DNA from: Methylocystis parvus OBBP
GTDB taxonomy: Bacteria > Pseudomonadota > Alphaproteobacteria > Rhizobiales > Beijerinckiaceae
NCBI RefSeq assembly: GCF_027571405.1
Contig: NZ_CP092968.1
Location: forward strand, 496,001 to 560,000
DNA: 64,000 bases
Reading direction: 5' to 3'
A model generated the notes under the pieces. It was not told where the DNA came from and did no database searches. It saw only the letters and a list, made by a program, of their open reading frames with translations. Shown piece after piece: positions 39,459-45,752 of the stretch. Within the stretch, counting starts at the first letter, position 1, and each line of letters begins with the position of its first letter. The translations under genes were made by a program, and so were the position numbers.

Positions 39459-39598
39459 CCTGCGGTCATTCTTACATCGCGGCGGGATTTCCTTTCAGCC
39501 CAAAATCTGGCGCTAAACCGGCGAGCGCCGCGCAAGGTGTGGACAAGGGTCGGCCGCATCCCTTAACTGCCGGGACAGACAAACCCTGGGCGAAGCTT

Positions 39599-40708
39599 AT
39601 GGAAGACTGGCTTCTCTTTCCGCATCCCGTTCCCGAGGTGAAGCATCGCGCCACGGAGGCGAACGCGGTCGGCGTGCGCAACTGGCTCTGGATCGTCGCG
39701 GCCCTCGTCTTTTTGATGGTGCTCGTCGGCGGCGCGACGCGGCTGACCGAATCCGGCCTCTCGATCGTCGAATGGAAGCCCGTGACCGGCGTCATCCCGC
39801 CGCTCTCCGAGAAGGAGTGGATGGACGCCTTCGAGGACTACAAGAAGATACCGCAATATAAGGAGCTGTTTCCGGAGATGGACCTTTCCGGATTCCGGTT
39901 CATCTACGCCTGGGAGTGGGCGCATCGCCTGCTCGGACGCCTGATCGGCGTCGTCTTCGCGGTTCCGCTCGTCTGGTTCTGGGCGACGAAGCGGCTGCCT
40001 TCCGCCGTGAAGCCGAAGCTCGTCTTCATTCTGGCGCTGGGCTTGCTACAGGGCGGCGTCGGCTGGTGGATGGTGTCCTCCGGCCTCGCGCATCGCACCG
40101 AAGTCGCGCAGGAGCGGCTGGCGATCCATCTGATCATCGCCGCCTTTATCTTCTCGTCCTGCCTCTGGGTGGCCGGCGGCCTCGGTCCGCGCCGCGAGTC
40201 GAGCGCGCATGACCATGTCGGGCGGCTGCGCGCGACGGGCTTGCTGCTTCTCGCAATCGTCTTCGTGCAGCTTTTCATGGGCGGCATCGTCGCCGGGCTG
40301 CGGGCGGGGCTTGTCGAGAACACCTGGCCGCTGATCGGCGGCGCCTTCATCCCCCCTGTGGACGCGCTTTTCCCGAAAGAGCCGTGGTGGTCGAATATTT
40401 TCGACACGCCCATCACCGCGCAATTCTTCCACCGCATGATCGCCTATGTGATCTTCGTCCTCGCGGCGCTACATCTGATCGACGCGGGGATGAACGCCGG
40501 CGGCCGGGCGCGGACCGGCGCGGTCATCGTTTTCGGGCATATTGTCGGGCAGATCGCCCTGGGCATAGCGACGTTGCTGCTCGTCGAGCCGCCATATGCG
40601 GGGACGCCGCATCTTCTGCTGGCGCTCGCCCATCAGGCGATCGGCATGGCCGTGCTCGCCGTCGCCACCCTGCAGGCGCGCCGGCTCGTGCACGACCTCG
40701 AAGCTTAA
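39599..40708 (+). CDS. ctaA: Heme A synthase (COX15/CtaA type)
   Basis: A 369-residue, eight-helix membrane enzyme. It has 'VGGATRLTESGLSIVEWKPV' after helix 1, 'FIYAWEWAHRLLGRLIGVVF' with a heme-ligand His, 'EVAQERLAIHLIIAAFIFSS' and, in the second half, 'QFFHRMIAYVIF' and 'HQAIGMAVLAV' with further His ligands. It hydroxylates the C8 methyl of heme O to form heme A for cytochrome aa3 oxidase. An in-frame GTG 20 codons earlier is possible, but the ATG gives the usual N-terminal length. Confidence 0.92.
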   Translation: MEDWLLFPHPVPEVKHRATEANAVGVRNWLWIVAALVFLMVLVGGATRLTESGLSIVEWKPVTGVIPPLSEKEWMDAFEDYKKIPQYKELFPEMDLSGFRFIYAWEWAHRLLGRLIGVVFAVPLVWFWATKRLPSAVKPKLVFILALGLLQGGVGWWMVSSGLAHRTEVAQERLAIHLIIAAFIFSSCLWVAGGLGPRRESSAHDHVGRLRATGLLLLAIVFVQLFMGGIVAGLRAGLVENTWPLIGGAFIPPVDALFPKEPWWSNIFDTPITAQFFHRMIAYVIFVLAALHLIDAGMNAGGRARTGAVIVFGHIVGQIALGIATLLLVEPPYAGTPHLLLALAHQAIGMAVLAVATLQARRLVHDLEA

Positions 40709-40721
40709 AAGGGGAAGGGCG

Positions 40722-41657
40722 ATGTTGCGGAGCCTCGACGTTCTCAATCTCCCGGGACCGGATTTCCTGAACGTTTTCGGCCTCGTCGCGATCCTCGTGC
40801 TCGCCGCGGGCTGGCTCGTCATCCATTTCGCGGACAGGACGGGAAACGCGCCGCCGGCCGTGCCGCAGAATCCGGACCCTGTCGATGTCGCCTTTCTGCA
40901 GGGCGGCGTGAACCAGGTCATCCGCATGATCGTCTATGACCTTGTCCAGCGCGGCTATGCGGCGCTGGGTTCCGACGATCGAGTTGCGCCGACCGCGAAG
41001 CGTCCGGAGCCGGGCGCGCTCGACGCCATGGAAAGCCGCGTCCTGGAGTCCATCCAGGCCAGGCCGAAGGCCCATGAGCTCTTCGCCAATCGCACGCAAC
41101 GGCAGGAATTGGCGGCGGCGCTGCGGCCCGCGCATGACAGGCTTGCGGCGGAAAATCTCGTGAAGCCCGAATCGGTGAAGATCTGGCGGACGCGCGTGCA
41201 AATATTCGGCGCGCTCATTCTCGTCGGTCTCGCCGGCGCGAAGATCTATGTCGCGCTGAATACGGGACACAAGAACGTCTGGTATCTCGTCTTCCTCTGC
41301 GCCGCCGCGGTGATCGGCCTTTTCGTGATGTGCTACGTCGCGACGCGCAGCCATGCGAGCCGTCGCGGCCGCGCTTATCTCGACGCGATGAAGCTCGCCT
41401 ATAAATCCCGCCTCGAAGAGCGGCTGCAGGAAGTCGGCGCGCCGGCGCCGGTCAAGGCCTTCGAAGGCGCCTCTCTGTTCCTGATCGGGCTCTACGGTTT
41501 CTCCGTCTTGAAAGGCACCGCCGACGCCGCCTTCGCCGAGCATTTCAAGCGGGCGTCCGGGGATGGCGGCGGCGGAAGCTGCGGTTCGAGCTGCGGCAGC
41601 TCCTGCGGCAGCAGCGATGGCGGTAGTGGTTGCGGCGGCTGCGGCGGCGGTGATTGA
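40722..41657 (+). CDS. TIGR04222-like membrane protein with Cys/Gly/Ser-rich C-terminus (candidate MNIO substrate)
   Basis: A 311-residue protein: an N-terminal membrane helix (about 15-36), a cytoplasmic-looking region ('VDVAFLQGGVNQVIRMIVYD' to about residue 150), two further helices (about 165-215) and a cytoplasmic segment. The final ~30 residues are nearly only Gly, Ser and Cys, with five cysteines in repeats like 'CGSSCGSSCGSS' and 'GCGGCGGG'. The fold and tail resemble the TIGR04222 family, noted for low-complexity Cys/Gly C-termini. The ribosome-binding site is AAGGGG before the ATG. Its stop codon lies inside the start of the DUF692 gene, so the tail is a plausible substrate for that oxidase. 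Confidence 0.75.
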   Translation: MLRSLDVLNLPGPDFLNVFGLVAILVLAAGWLVIHFADRTGNAPPAVPQNPDPVDVAFLQGGVNQVIRMIVYDLVQRGYAALGSDDRVAPTAKRPEPGALDAMESRVLESIQARPKAHELFANRTQRQELAAALRPAHDRLAAENLVKPESVKIWRTRVQIFGALILVGLAGAKIYVALNTGHKNVWYLVFLCAAAVIGLFVMCYVATRSHASRRGRAYLDAMKLAYKSRLEERLQEVGAPAPVKAFEGASLFLIGLYGFSVLKGTADAAFAEHFKRASGDGGGGSCGSSCGSSCGSSDGGSGCGGCGGGD

Positions 41658-42480
41658 CGCGCCCGCTCTCGGCTCCGGCATCGGCTATCGGCCGGCCTTC
41701 CGCGCCGATCTTTTCGCCAACCGCGCCCGCGTCGATTTTCTGGAGATCATCGCCGACCACTATTTCAGCGCGTCGCCCGAGAAGCTCCGCGAACTCGATC
41801 TTCTGCGCGCGCATTTTCCCATCGTGGCTCATGGGCTCGATCTTTCCATCGGCTCCGCGGAAGGGATCGACCCTGCCTATCTCGACAGAGTCGCGGCGCT
41901 GATCGCACGCGTCGATCCGCCCTGGTGGAGCGAGCATCTCTGCTTCACCCGCGCGGGCGGCGTGGATATCGGCCATCTCGCGGCGCTGCCATATACGCGG
42001 GAAGCGATCGACATCGTCGCGCGCAATGTCGAGACGGCGCGCAAGCGCATCAAGGCGCCGCTCGTCATCGAAAATATTACGACGGTCGTGCGCGTGCCCG
42101 GCGCGGAGATGGACGAACCCGAATTCCTGACGCGGGCGCTCGACGCGACGGGTTGCTTCTGGCTTTGCGACGTCGCCAATCTCTATACGAACGCGGTCAA
42201 TCACGGGATCGACATCGATGCGACTTTCGAGCGCTGGCCCTGGGACCGACTCGTGCAGATCCATTATGCGGGCGGGCGCTGGCGCGACGGCGTCCTGATC
42301 GACAGCCACGACTCCCCGACGAGCGAAGCCGTCTGGGATCTCTATGACCGCATCGTCGCGCGCGCGCCGGTGAGGGGCGCGATCCTGGAGCGCGACGAGC
42401 GCCTGCCGCCTTTCAGCGAGCTGCTCGATGAAGTCGCGCGCGCCCGCGCCTCACTGGAGAAATGCGGCCGATGGGGCTGA
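41647..42480 (+). CDS. DUF692 multinuclear non-heme iron oxidase (MNIO, MbnB/TglH-like)
   Basis: A 277-residue TIM-barrel-type protein with the DUF692 series of metal-ligand motifs in order: 'GIGYRPAF', 'VDFLEIIADHYF', 'PIVAHGLDLSIGS', 'WWSEHLCFT', 'PLVIENITT', 'WLCDVANLYTNAVNHG', 'QIHYAGG', 'DSHDSP' and 'ILERDERLPPF'. MNIOs use two or three iron ions to oxidise cysteines in peptide substrates, as MbnB does for methanobactin. The start is GTG, overlapping the upstream Cys-rich protein gene by 11 bp; the long frame upstream is an artefact of that gene's Gly/Cys tail. The next gene starts at its stop. Confidence 0.88.
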   Translation, partial: AVIDAPALGSGIGYRPAFRADLFANRARVDFLEIIADHYFSASPEKLRELDLLRAHFPIVAHGLDLSIGSAEGIDPAYLDRVAALIARVDPPWWSEHLCFTRAGGVDIGHLAALPYTREAIDIVARNVETARKRIKAPLVIENITTVVRVPGAEMDEPEFLTRALDATGCFWLCDVANLYTNAVNHGIDIDATFERWPWDRLVQIHYAGGRWRDGVLIDSHDSPTSEAVWDLYDRIVARAPVRGAILERDERLPPFSELLDEVARARASLEKCGRWG

Positions 42481-43025
42481 TGCAGACGCAGGCGCTGCTC
42501 GCGCGCCTCTTCACGGACGCCGATCTGCGCCGCGCCTTTTTCGACGATCCGCAAAGGACGCTGAGGGGCTTTGACTTATCCGAGGATGAGGCGACGGCGC
42601 TCGCCGCGCTGGACAAAGGCGAGGTCGAGGAATTTGCGCGCTGCCTTCTCGGCAAGCGCGCGCTCGACGCGCGCAAGGTTCTGCCGCTTACGGCGAAGGC
42701 GCTCGGTCCCGATTTCGACAGGCTGTCGCGCGAGGCGATCGTCGGGCCGCCACCGCCGGGCCGCCACCGCGCCGACGCCGCGGCGCTTGCGCGGCTGCTG
42801 ACGTCGCGCAAGCTGAGTCCCGGCTGGATCGGCGATCTCGCGCGTTTTGAAATGGCCTTTGTCGCGGCCGCGCGGCCCGGGGTTGTTCTGCGGCGCTTCG
42901 CTTGGCCCGTAAACGACGTTACGCGCCAGCTTCTCGCCGGCGCGCCCGTCGATGTTCGTCCCCGGCGGCGCTTTGGGATATGGCTCCGCGCGCCGGGTCG
43001 AAAACTTTATTGGCGGATGTTTTAA
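42480..43025 (+). CDS. Probable partner protein of the DUF692 oxidase
   Basis: A 181-residue helical, basic protein starting 'QTQALLARLFTDADLRRAFF' and 'GFDLSEDEATALAALDKGEV', then 'LAKALGPDF-like' helices, 'SPGWIGDLARFEMAFVAAAR' and a basic end 'APGRKLYWRMF'. The N-terminal pattern is like that of the second proteins (MbnC/DUF2063 analogues) found beside DUF692 enzymes, which recruit the substrate leader; the assignment rests mainly on position. The ATG overlaps the oxidase stop (TGATG); ATGs three and six codons earlier are alternatives. Confidence 0.6.
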   Translation: MQTQALLARLFTDADLRRAFFDDPQRTLRGFDLSEDEATALAALDKGEVEEFARCLLGKRALDARKVLPLTAKALGPDFDRLSREAIVGPPPPGRHRADAAALARLLTSRKLSPGWIGDLARFEMAFVAAARPGVVLRRFAWPVNDVTRQLLAGAPVDVRPRRRFGIWLRAPGRKLYWRMF

Positions 43026-44291: not shown

Positions 44292-45752
44292 TTACACAGA
44301 TTCCTCTGCGGGCGCGCTCTGCGGCGCGCCGCCGAAACGTCGGTAAATGTAAGCTGGCGGCGGCGCGTGCGACTCCGTCTCGGCGAAGGCGGCGAAGCGC
44401 GCATGGTCGGGCGAGAGATGGCAGGCGGGGTCGGTCGCCGCCGCGTCTCCCGCCACCGCCAGCGCCTGACAACGACAGCCGCCATAGTCGATCTCGCGGC
44501 GATCGCAGCTTCTGCACGGCTCTTTCATCCACTCTACGCCGCGATAGGCGTTGAAGGCGGCGCCGTTGCGCCAGATGTCGCCGAGGTCACGCGTGCGCAC
44601 GTCGTCGAAAGTCAGATGCGGAATGGTCTGCGCCGCGTGGCAGGGCAGGGCCTTGCCGGAGGGCGTGACGACCATGATCGATCGGCCCCAGCCGCCCGTG
44701 CATTGCTTCGGCCGCGTGGCGTAGTGATCGTGGATGACGAAGTCGAAATTGAGCACGCCCTGCAATCGCTTCTTCGCCGCGTCGACAATACCGACCGTCT
44801 CCATGAACGTCTCGCGCGTGGGGATCAGCGCCGCGCGGTTCTCCTGCGCCCAGGCGTAATATTGGATATGCGCGATCTCGATGCGCTGCGCGTCGACCTC
44901 GACGGCGAAGTCTATGATCTGCGGCAGATGCGCGATGTTCTGGCGGTGCATCGGCGCGTTGATGGTGAGGCCCATGCCGAGTTCGCGCGTCCAGCGCGCG
45001 ACGTCGCGCTTCTTCGGGACGCCGCCCTCGAAGGCCGAGATGCGGTCGGCGCTTTCCGGAACCACGTCCTGTATCGAGACCTGCACATGGTCGAGGCCGA
45101 TCCGCGCGAGGCGCTCCAGCTTCTCGCGCGTCAGCAGCACGGCCGACGTGACCAGATTCGTATAGAGCCCCGCTTCGACGGCGTAAGTCAGTATCTCTTC
45201 GAGATCGCGCCGCGCCGTGGGTTCGCCGCCGGAAAGATGCAGTTGCAGCGCGCCGATCGAGGCCGCCTGACGAAACGTCTCGCCCCATTGCGCCGCCGTC
45301 ATCTCGACATTGGATTTCTCGAGCTCCAGCGGATTGGAGCAGTAAGGGCATTGAAGCGGGCAGCGATGCGTCAGCTCGGCGAGCAGCCCCGCCGGCCCGC
45401 CTGCGAAGGGCGCGACGGACGACGCGAAATCGGAGAGCTTGGGCGGCGAGAAAAGATCGACGCCGTCGCGCAGCAGCCGCTTGTCGGCGAGACCCTGCAG
45501 CAGGTTCGTGACGTCGCGCGTAATGACGTCGAGCGGCGCCTTGTATTGCGCCGCCAGACGCGCGCAAAGCTCGGCGATGGTCGTCTCGCCATCGATGGCC
45601 TTCAGGACAATGAGGCCGATCGGGTCGAGCTCATAGGCGCGCTCGGGCGCGAGAATGACGGTGCGTTGACGCGCGCGGTCGTCATGCAGCCGTGCATAGC
45701 GCGTGAAAGCGGGGCGGGAGTCCGGGCCGATGATGTAGCGAGAAGTCGTCAT
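44292..45752 (-). CDS. pqqE: PqqD-PqqE fusion (PQQ peptide chaperone and radical SAM enzyme)
   Basis: A 486-residue protein. Residues 1-95 are a PqqD domain ('VILAPERAYELDPIGLIVLK', 'TIAELCARLAAQYKAP'), which binds the PqqA leader. From about 120 it is PqqE: the radical SAM cysteines in 'HRCPLQCPYCSN', 'QLHLSGGEPTARRDLEEIL' and C-terminal cluster cysteines in 'PCRSCDRREIDYGGCRCQ'. PqqE joins the Glu and Tyr side chains of PqqA, the first step in PQQ synthesis. PqqD is usually separate or fused to PqqC in methylotrophs such as Methylobacterium. It is the last gene of the minus-strand pqqBC-DE set. Confidence 0.95.
   Translation of the reverse strand: MTTSRYIIGPDSRPAFTRYARLHDDRARQRTVILAPERAYELDPIGLIVLKAIDGETTIAELCARLAAQYKAPLDVITRDVTNLLQGLADKRLLRDGVDLFSPPKLSDFASSVAPFAGGPAGLLAELTHRCPLQCPYCSNPLELEKSNVEMTAAQWGETFRQAASIGALQLHLSGGEPTARRDLEEILTYAVEAGLYTNLVTSAVLLTREKLERLARIGLDHVQVSIQDVVPESADRISAFEGGVPKKRDVARWTRELGMGLTINAPMHRQNIAHLPQIIDFAVEVDAQRIEIAHIQYYAWAQENRAALIPTRETFMETVGIVDAAKKRLQGVLNFDFVIHDHYATRPKQCTGGWGRSIMVVTPSGKALPCHAAQTIPHLTFDDVRTRDLGDIWRNGAAFNAYRGVEWMKEPCRSCDRREIDYGGCRCQALAVAGDAAATDPACHLSPDHARFAAFAETESHAPPPAYIYRRFGGAPQSAPAEESV

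Follow-up and report, generated by a model that had tools for sequence, protein, structure and literature searches.

The window analysed here, a 64,000-nucleotide stretch of the Methylocystis parvus OBBP genome (NZ_CP092968.1, positions 496,001 to 560,000), contains three consecutive genes that encode a TIGR04222 membrane protein with a Cys-rich C-terminal tail, a multinuclear non-heme iron-dependent oxidase (MNIO; DUF692/PF05114) and a partner protein resembling TglI. We propose, with a probability of roughly 0.65, that these genes constitute a three-gene modification unit in which the tail is the putative MNIO substrate. As judged from its sequence, the locus represents a conserved MNIO-substrate-partner unit of an already described kind and is probably functional. 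Established directly are the order and overlap of the genes, the presence of a Cys tail beside every member found of this MNIO subfamily, the intactness of the iron site and one joint loss of tail, enzyme and partner in which the membrane domain stayed under selection. The first-pass annotation had already named the tail as the likely target of the enzyme, and this is supported by a two-way association of tail and enzyme, by their co-loss and by the lack of space for a separate precursor.

TIGR04222 proteins scoring over the cut-off were found in 33/39 genomes of the genus, 47/397 of the family, 9/397 of an order sample and 14/398 of a phylum sample; these samples overlap and comprise 61 different genomes, whose 61 loci were all inspected. 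At 32 of the loci an MNIO and a partner gene adjoin TIGR04222, at 29 they do not. The first group includes G940, where an apparent frameshift (locus L095), be it a sequencing error or real, fuses the TIGR04222 and MNIO open reading frames (ORFs) and leaves the tail in another frame, so that it was first scored as MNIO-less and tail-less and then moved. The second group includes G943, which has neither MNIO nor partner and whose partly masked gene counts as a locus with <2 Cys, as well as G663 and G699, whose ORFs run off their contigs. Tail-less DUF692 neighbours in all close relatives had been named as a finding that would speak against the proposal; instead, all 32 MNIO-adjacent loci encode a tail with 3-5 Cys, and the motif CG.SC (CGxSC) occurs in 29/32 of them vs 0/29 of the others. 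In the reverse direction, a search with the window MNIO in 298 family genomes gave 24 matches of 62-100% identity (itself included), and all 24 adjoin a gene for a Cys-tailed TIGR04222 protein; the other MNIOs among the matches listed are 32-40% identical to the window MNIO.

Gene trios of this kind have been described before. Antoine et al. (2025) counted >1,000 Cys proteins that have no signal peptide and are encoded ahead of MNIO genes, and ~40% of these are TIGR04222 proteins. By their account, a subset whose C-terminal segments are rich in Cys might serve as MNIO substrates; TglI/NGO1945-like 'PME-type 2' proteins accompany TIGR04222 in at least 10% of its clusters; more than a quarter of TIGR04222 proteins have no C-proximal Cys; one third of TIGR04222 genomes have no MNIO genes; and the tails probably lie in the periplasm (PMC12452194). 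The present locus resembles theirs in the trio itself, the Cys-rich C-terminal tail and the TglI/NGO1945-like partner, but it belongs to a Methylocystis lineage whereas theirs lie mostly in Actinomycetota, and we argue for a cytoplasmic instead of a periplasmic tail. The listings obtained in searches of open-licence papers name no experiment on these proteins. What this analysis adds is the pairing in both directions, the co-loss, a motif linked to the MNIO and an argument about topology that disagrees with the published view. With its defined core motif and with tail-less relatives as natural controls, the locus is a compact system for testing. If the tail is indeed modified and cytoplasmic, MNIO chemistry would extend from peptides to membrane proteins.

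Architecture of the locus

All three genes were located where the first-pass annotation had placed them. Together with the preceding ctaA gene they lie tightly packed on the + strand, with the following features (window coordinates):

40722..41657, + strand: TIGR04222 membrane protein gene, 311 aa, proposed substrate (TIGR04222, 86.6 bits)
41559..41654, + strand: Cys-rich Gly/Ser tail, residues 280-311, without predicted structure (from the sequence; predicted local distance difference test score, pLDDT, <50 over residues 282-293)
41580..41609, + strand: core motif CGSSCGSSCG, residues 287-296, proposed modification core (from CG.SC distribution and codon evidence)
41650..42480, + strand: MNIO (DUF692/PF05114) oxidase, likely start GTG 41650 (PF05114, 280.7 bits)
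42471..43025, + strand: partner protein, TglI-like (PME-type 2), likely start ATG 42471
42489..42647, + strand: N-terminal Os1348/NHLP-clan domain of the partner

The TIGR04222 protein clearly passes its NCBIfam model (cut-off 43), and its AlphaFold2 model (mean pLDDT 87.6) is a mostly helical domain with three transmembrane helices and two short strands between helices 1 and 2. The tail, GDGGGGSCGSSCGSSCGSSDGGSGCGGCGGGD, is Gly/Ser-rich and holds five Cys, confirming the earlier description. The motif CGxSCxx[S/A]C is found in 27/27 genus loci with a readable Cys tail, i.e. in 26 aligned rows and in G940, the tail of which was read in its own frame. As the 26 codon rows were chosen by the motif, the invariance of its fixed letters is given by construction, but the codon swaps are not: position 8 is Ser in 25/26 rows, encoded by AGT in 16 and by TCN in 9, and all four Gly codons are in use at Gly2. 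These swaps with residues kept, and a pN/pS of 0.24 over 17 distinct rows, suggest that the conservation of the motif exceeds chance.

The MNIO (276 aa) exceeds the PF05114 gathering cut-off of 25 by far and its iron site is intact. All nine (9/9) iron ligands of TglH (H71, H107, E151, D184, N187, H216, D229, H231 and E258) are present, aligning with H61, H96, E141, D174, N177, H205, D218, H220 and E247, and they are invariant in 32/32 tail-linked MNIOs; TglH Asn73 falls in a stretch that is unaligned with the window MNIO. Cys173 (window 42166-42168), located just before ligand D174, is also invariant in 32/32 tail-linked MNIOs and has no equivalent in the BufB-like and MbnB proteins encoded elsewhere in this genome, which suggests that it is a marker of this subfamily, possibly with a function. 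The partner combines a TglI/NGO1945-like fold with the lack of a DUF2063 signature and is thus of PME-type 2; DUF2063, the mark of PME-type 1, gave no match at E<=0.01 in any of the 35 members aligned.

The MNIO gene had been described as beginning inside the end of the TIGR04222 gene. This overlap is real, but it amounts to ~8 bases, and to 95 if counted from 41563, where the frame opens; the N-termini of relatives place the start near GTG 41650 and give no support to the long start at 41563, which was rejected. Likewise, the junction of the partner gene with the oxidase stop holds, but as a probable 10-base overlap, since most relatives start with MxLxxTQ, corresponding to ATG 42471. A hidden short precursor gene within the operon was rejected, as the 13-base gap between ctaA and the TIGR04222 gene, the two overlaps and the 65 bases between the partner gene and a convergent gene resembling fliJ (31.6 bits, under the cut-off of its model) leave no space for it, and this supports the tail as the likely MNIO target.

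The locus differs from the well-known MNIO systems. In the TglHI pathway to 3-thiaglutamate, the modification takes place on the C-terminal Cys of a peptide, TglA-Cys (PMC10880893), whereas here we propose the tail of a membrane protein. The nearest NCBIfam model of the window MNIO is BufB (242.6 bits, below the cut-off of 310), and Cys-Gly motifs are common to the tail and the bufferins/captophorins (BufB, HvfB); unlike the bufferin systems, however, the window operon has no short precursor with a Sec signal, nor a gap that could hold one, and its partner lacks DUF2063. On the MbnB model of the methanobactin system MbnBC the window MNIO scores 48.7 bits vs a cut-off of 325.

Proposed mechanism and side of the tail

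In the proposed unit, the TIGR04222 protein would be an inner-membrane protein whose N-terminus lies outside and whose C-terminal Cys tail lies in the cytoplasm, and, judging by its fold, the TglI-like partner would work together with the MNIO in the way TglI works with TglH. The iron cluster of the MNIO and oxygen would oxidise tail cysteines, most likely those of the CGxSCxxSC core, and might thereby form a 5-thiooxazole or a similar sulfur heterocycle. At Cys residues, other MNIOs produce 5-thiooxazole or oxazolone/thioamide groups, and peptides carrying 5-thiooxazole bind copper (PMC13097082). The modified product would remain tethered to the membrane protein and, in the least certain step, would probably bind a soft metal such as copper. 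We infer the chemistry of this oxidation by MNIO and partner, the metal and the physiological role by analogy. More tentatively, and with odds that we place below even, the oxidised Cys residues may never be released and may form a permanent metal or redox site at the cytoplasmic face, with the N-terminal domain of the partner, which belongs to a family (Os1348/NHLP clan) modelled as leader peptides of ribosomally synthesized and post-translationally modified peptides, possibly giving the leader in trans. The outcome would be a modified protein and not a natural product, and the substrate itself would have no leader.

The side of the tail is decided by a fourth hydrophobic segment. Three strong membrane helices are predicted, and in 57/57 aligned sequences Lys and Arg are denser on the sides taken as inside. 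The fourth segment (residues 244-262) has a mean Kyte-Doolittle hydropathy of 1.31, and at the cut-off used four hydrophobic segments are present in 38/57 sequences, five in 9 and three in 10. This segment would suit an alternative in which the tail is modified but periplasmic, similar to a bufferin, with the MNIO acting before membrane crossing, in agreement with the published prediction (PMC12452194). However, it forms only a 14-residue helix (250-263) in the AlphaFold2 model and scores poorly for insertion: with position effects ignored, its mean 19-residue insertion sum is 4.98 vs -1.22, 2.29 and -2.28 for helices 1-3. The sum is below zero in 1/57 sequences, although helix 2 itself is below zero in only 3/57. 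Moreover, DUF2207_C (PF20990) matches 9/26 relatives at E<=0.01 (the window protein reaches 15.7 bits vs 33), and the Gly/Ser-rich C-terminus of DUF2207 is predicted to be 'intercellular', taken here as intracellular (PMC10457818). The likeness consists in these matches and in the Gly/Ser-rich C-terminal tails, but the window protein has no large N-terminal extracellular domain, its tail carries Cys and hhalign gives a probability of only 25%. Taken together, we consider a modified periplasmic tail rather unlikely and, contrary to the published view, judge a cytoplasmic tail to be about three times likelier than a periplasmic one.

Cys tails without MNIO and the co-loss

At least two tail Cys are encoded at 20 of the 29 loci without an adjacent MNIO, and CGGC at 17, so that 'Cys tail means MNIO' was rejected as a general rule. 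For ten of these 20 loci no MNIO was found in the genome (two genomes are 77% and 80% complete), and CGGC ends occur no less often without an adjacent MNIO (17/29) than with one (11/31; G940 set aside). Such a pattern would fit if the tail were a plain, unmodified Cys-rich metal or redox tail and MNIO and partner acted on a target encoded elsewhere. We nevertheless regard this as improbable, given that all 24 close MNIO relatives stand beside a Cys tail, that CG.SC is confined to MNIO-adjacent loci and that this MNIO subfamily was not found in the five genomes that lost the tail. The CGGC-type tail thus does not need an MNIO, whereas CGxSC, seen at 0/29 of the loci without an adjacent MNIO, is MNIO-linked in this sample.

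The five tail-less genomes (G017, G057, G164, G941 and G954, all of the genus) have kept TIGR04222, but the protein stops where the tail would begin and has 0-1 Cys within its last 60 residues. The next gene is in all five the convergent fliJ-like gene, followed by pqq genes, with a cupin gene between them only in G017. A tblastn search (E<=10) of the 6 kb downstream revealed no convincing remnants of MNIO or partner, the best scores being E 1.4 for the MNIO and E 0.094 for the partner, the latter inside pqqDE of G954. Four of the five genomes have no MNIO at all (G941 and G954 are 73% and 81% complete), and the sole MNIO of G017 is bufferin-type. In a 35-row tree of the membrane domain, from which G943 and the near-duplicate loci L015 and L085 were omitted, the five form one clade (97/91), pointing to one loss event. 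G958, which belongs to another genus, lacks ctaA at this locus but has the TIGR04222, MNIO and partner genes next to these fliJ-like, cupin and pqq genes, and G161 and G078 share the fliJ-like and cupin genes, with pqqDE on the opposite side; as judged from these shared neighbours, the tail-less state is derived. The dN/dS of the tail-less membrane domain is 0.14 and 0.14 in close pairs, 0.27 in a wider pair and undefined in a fourth, and such purifying selection means that the domain serves some function even where the tail is gone.

A single deletion could mechanically explain the joint loss, which weighs against our proposal by limiting what the co-loss can contribute. That the pairing as a whole reflects vertical inheritance of one operon instead of an enzyme-substrate relation would fit the single clade and the clean excision between membrane domain and convergent gene, but is hardly probable, since the pairing occurs in three genera with MNIO identities of 62-100%, persists in one genus (G027, G167) without the window's other tested neighbours and belongs to a frequent TIGR04222-MNIO neighbourhood, most TIGR04222 proteins being found in Actinomycetota (PMC12452194).

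Six genomes of the genus lack TIGR04222, and MNIOs were looked for in four of them (all but G934 and G950). One contains two short MNIO pieces in a 180-aa frame (G935:C7:4072-4524), which may be left over from this MNIO or from a different one.

Neighbouring genes and other MNIOs of the genome

Upstream of the three genes lies the following gene:

39539..40708, + strand: ctaA (heme A synthase; PF02628, 327.1 bits)

It adjoins the TIGR04222 gene in 32/33 genus loci, the remaining locus being cut by a contig end, but is missing at 5/5 MNIO-bearing loci of two other genera. The special tie to heme A synthase suggested by the first-pass annotation is not borne out, and heme A synthase was rejected as functional partner because the adjacency is not conserved beyond the genus; it represents genus-level synteny and is weak evidence for a respiratory role. 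On the other side, the fliJ-like gene is followed by a cupin gene and then by pqq genes, and the PqqE encoded at window 44292-45752 has a PqqD domain fused to its N-terminus.

PF05114 gives five matches in the genome, i.e. the window MNIO, two bufferin-like MNIOs and two methanobactin MbnB proteins. A bufferin-type cluster (L080:5544-8261, within G000:C1:3664000-3678000) encodes a BufB (377.8 bits vs 310), a partner that matches DUF2063 with 60.1 bits and three short ORFs with signal-like N-termini, two of them Cys/His-rich and one with two Cys. The second bufferin-like MNIO (L081:6114-6896) scores below the BufB cut-off, covers only the first 184/262 model positions and is possibly broken. 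The two mbnB genes (L082:6327-7349 and L083:6055-6951, on contigs 3 and 1 of G000) score 442.2 and 445.8 bits, over the equivalog cut-off, and the 205-kb contig that carries one of them may be a plasmid.
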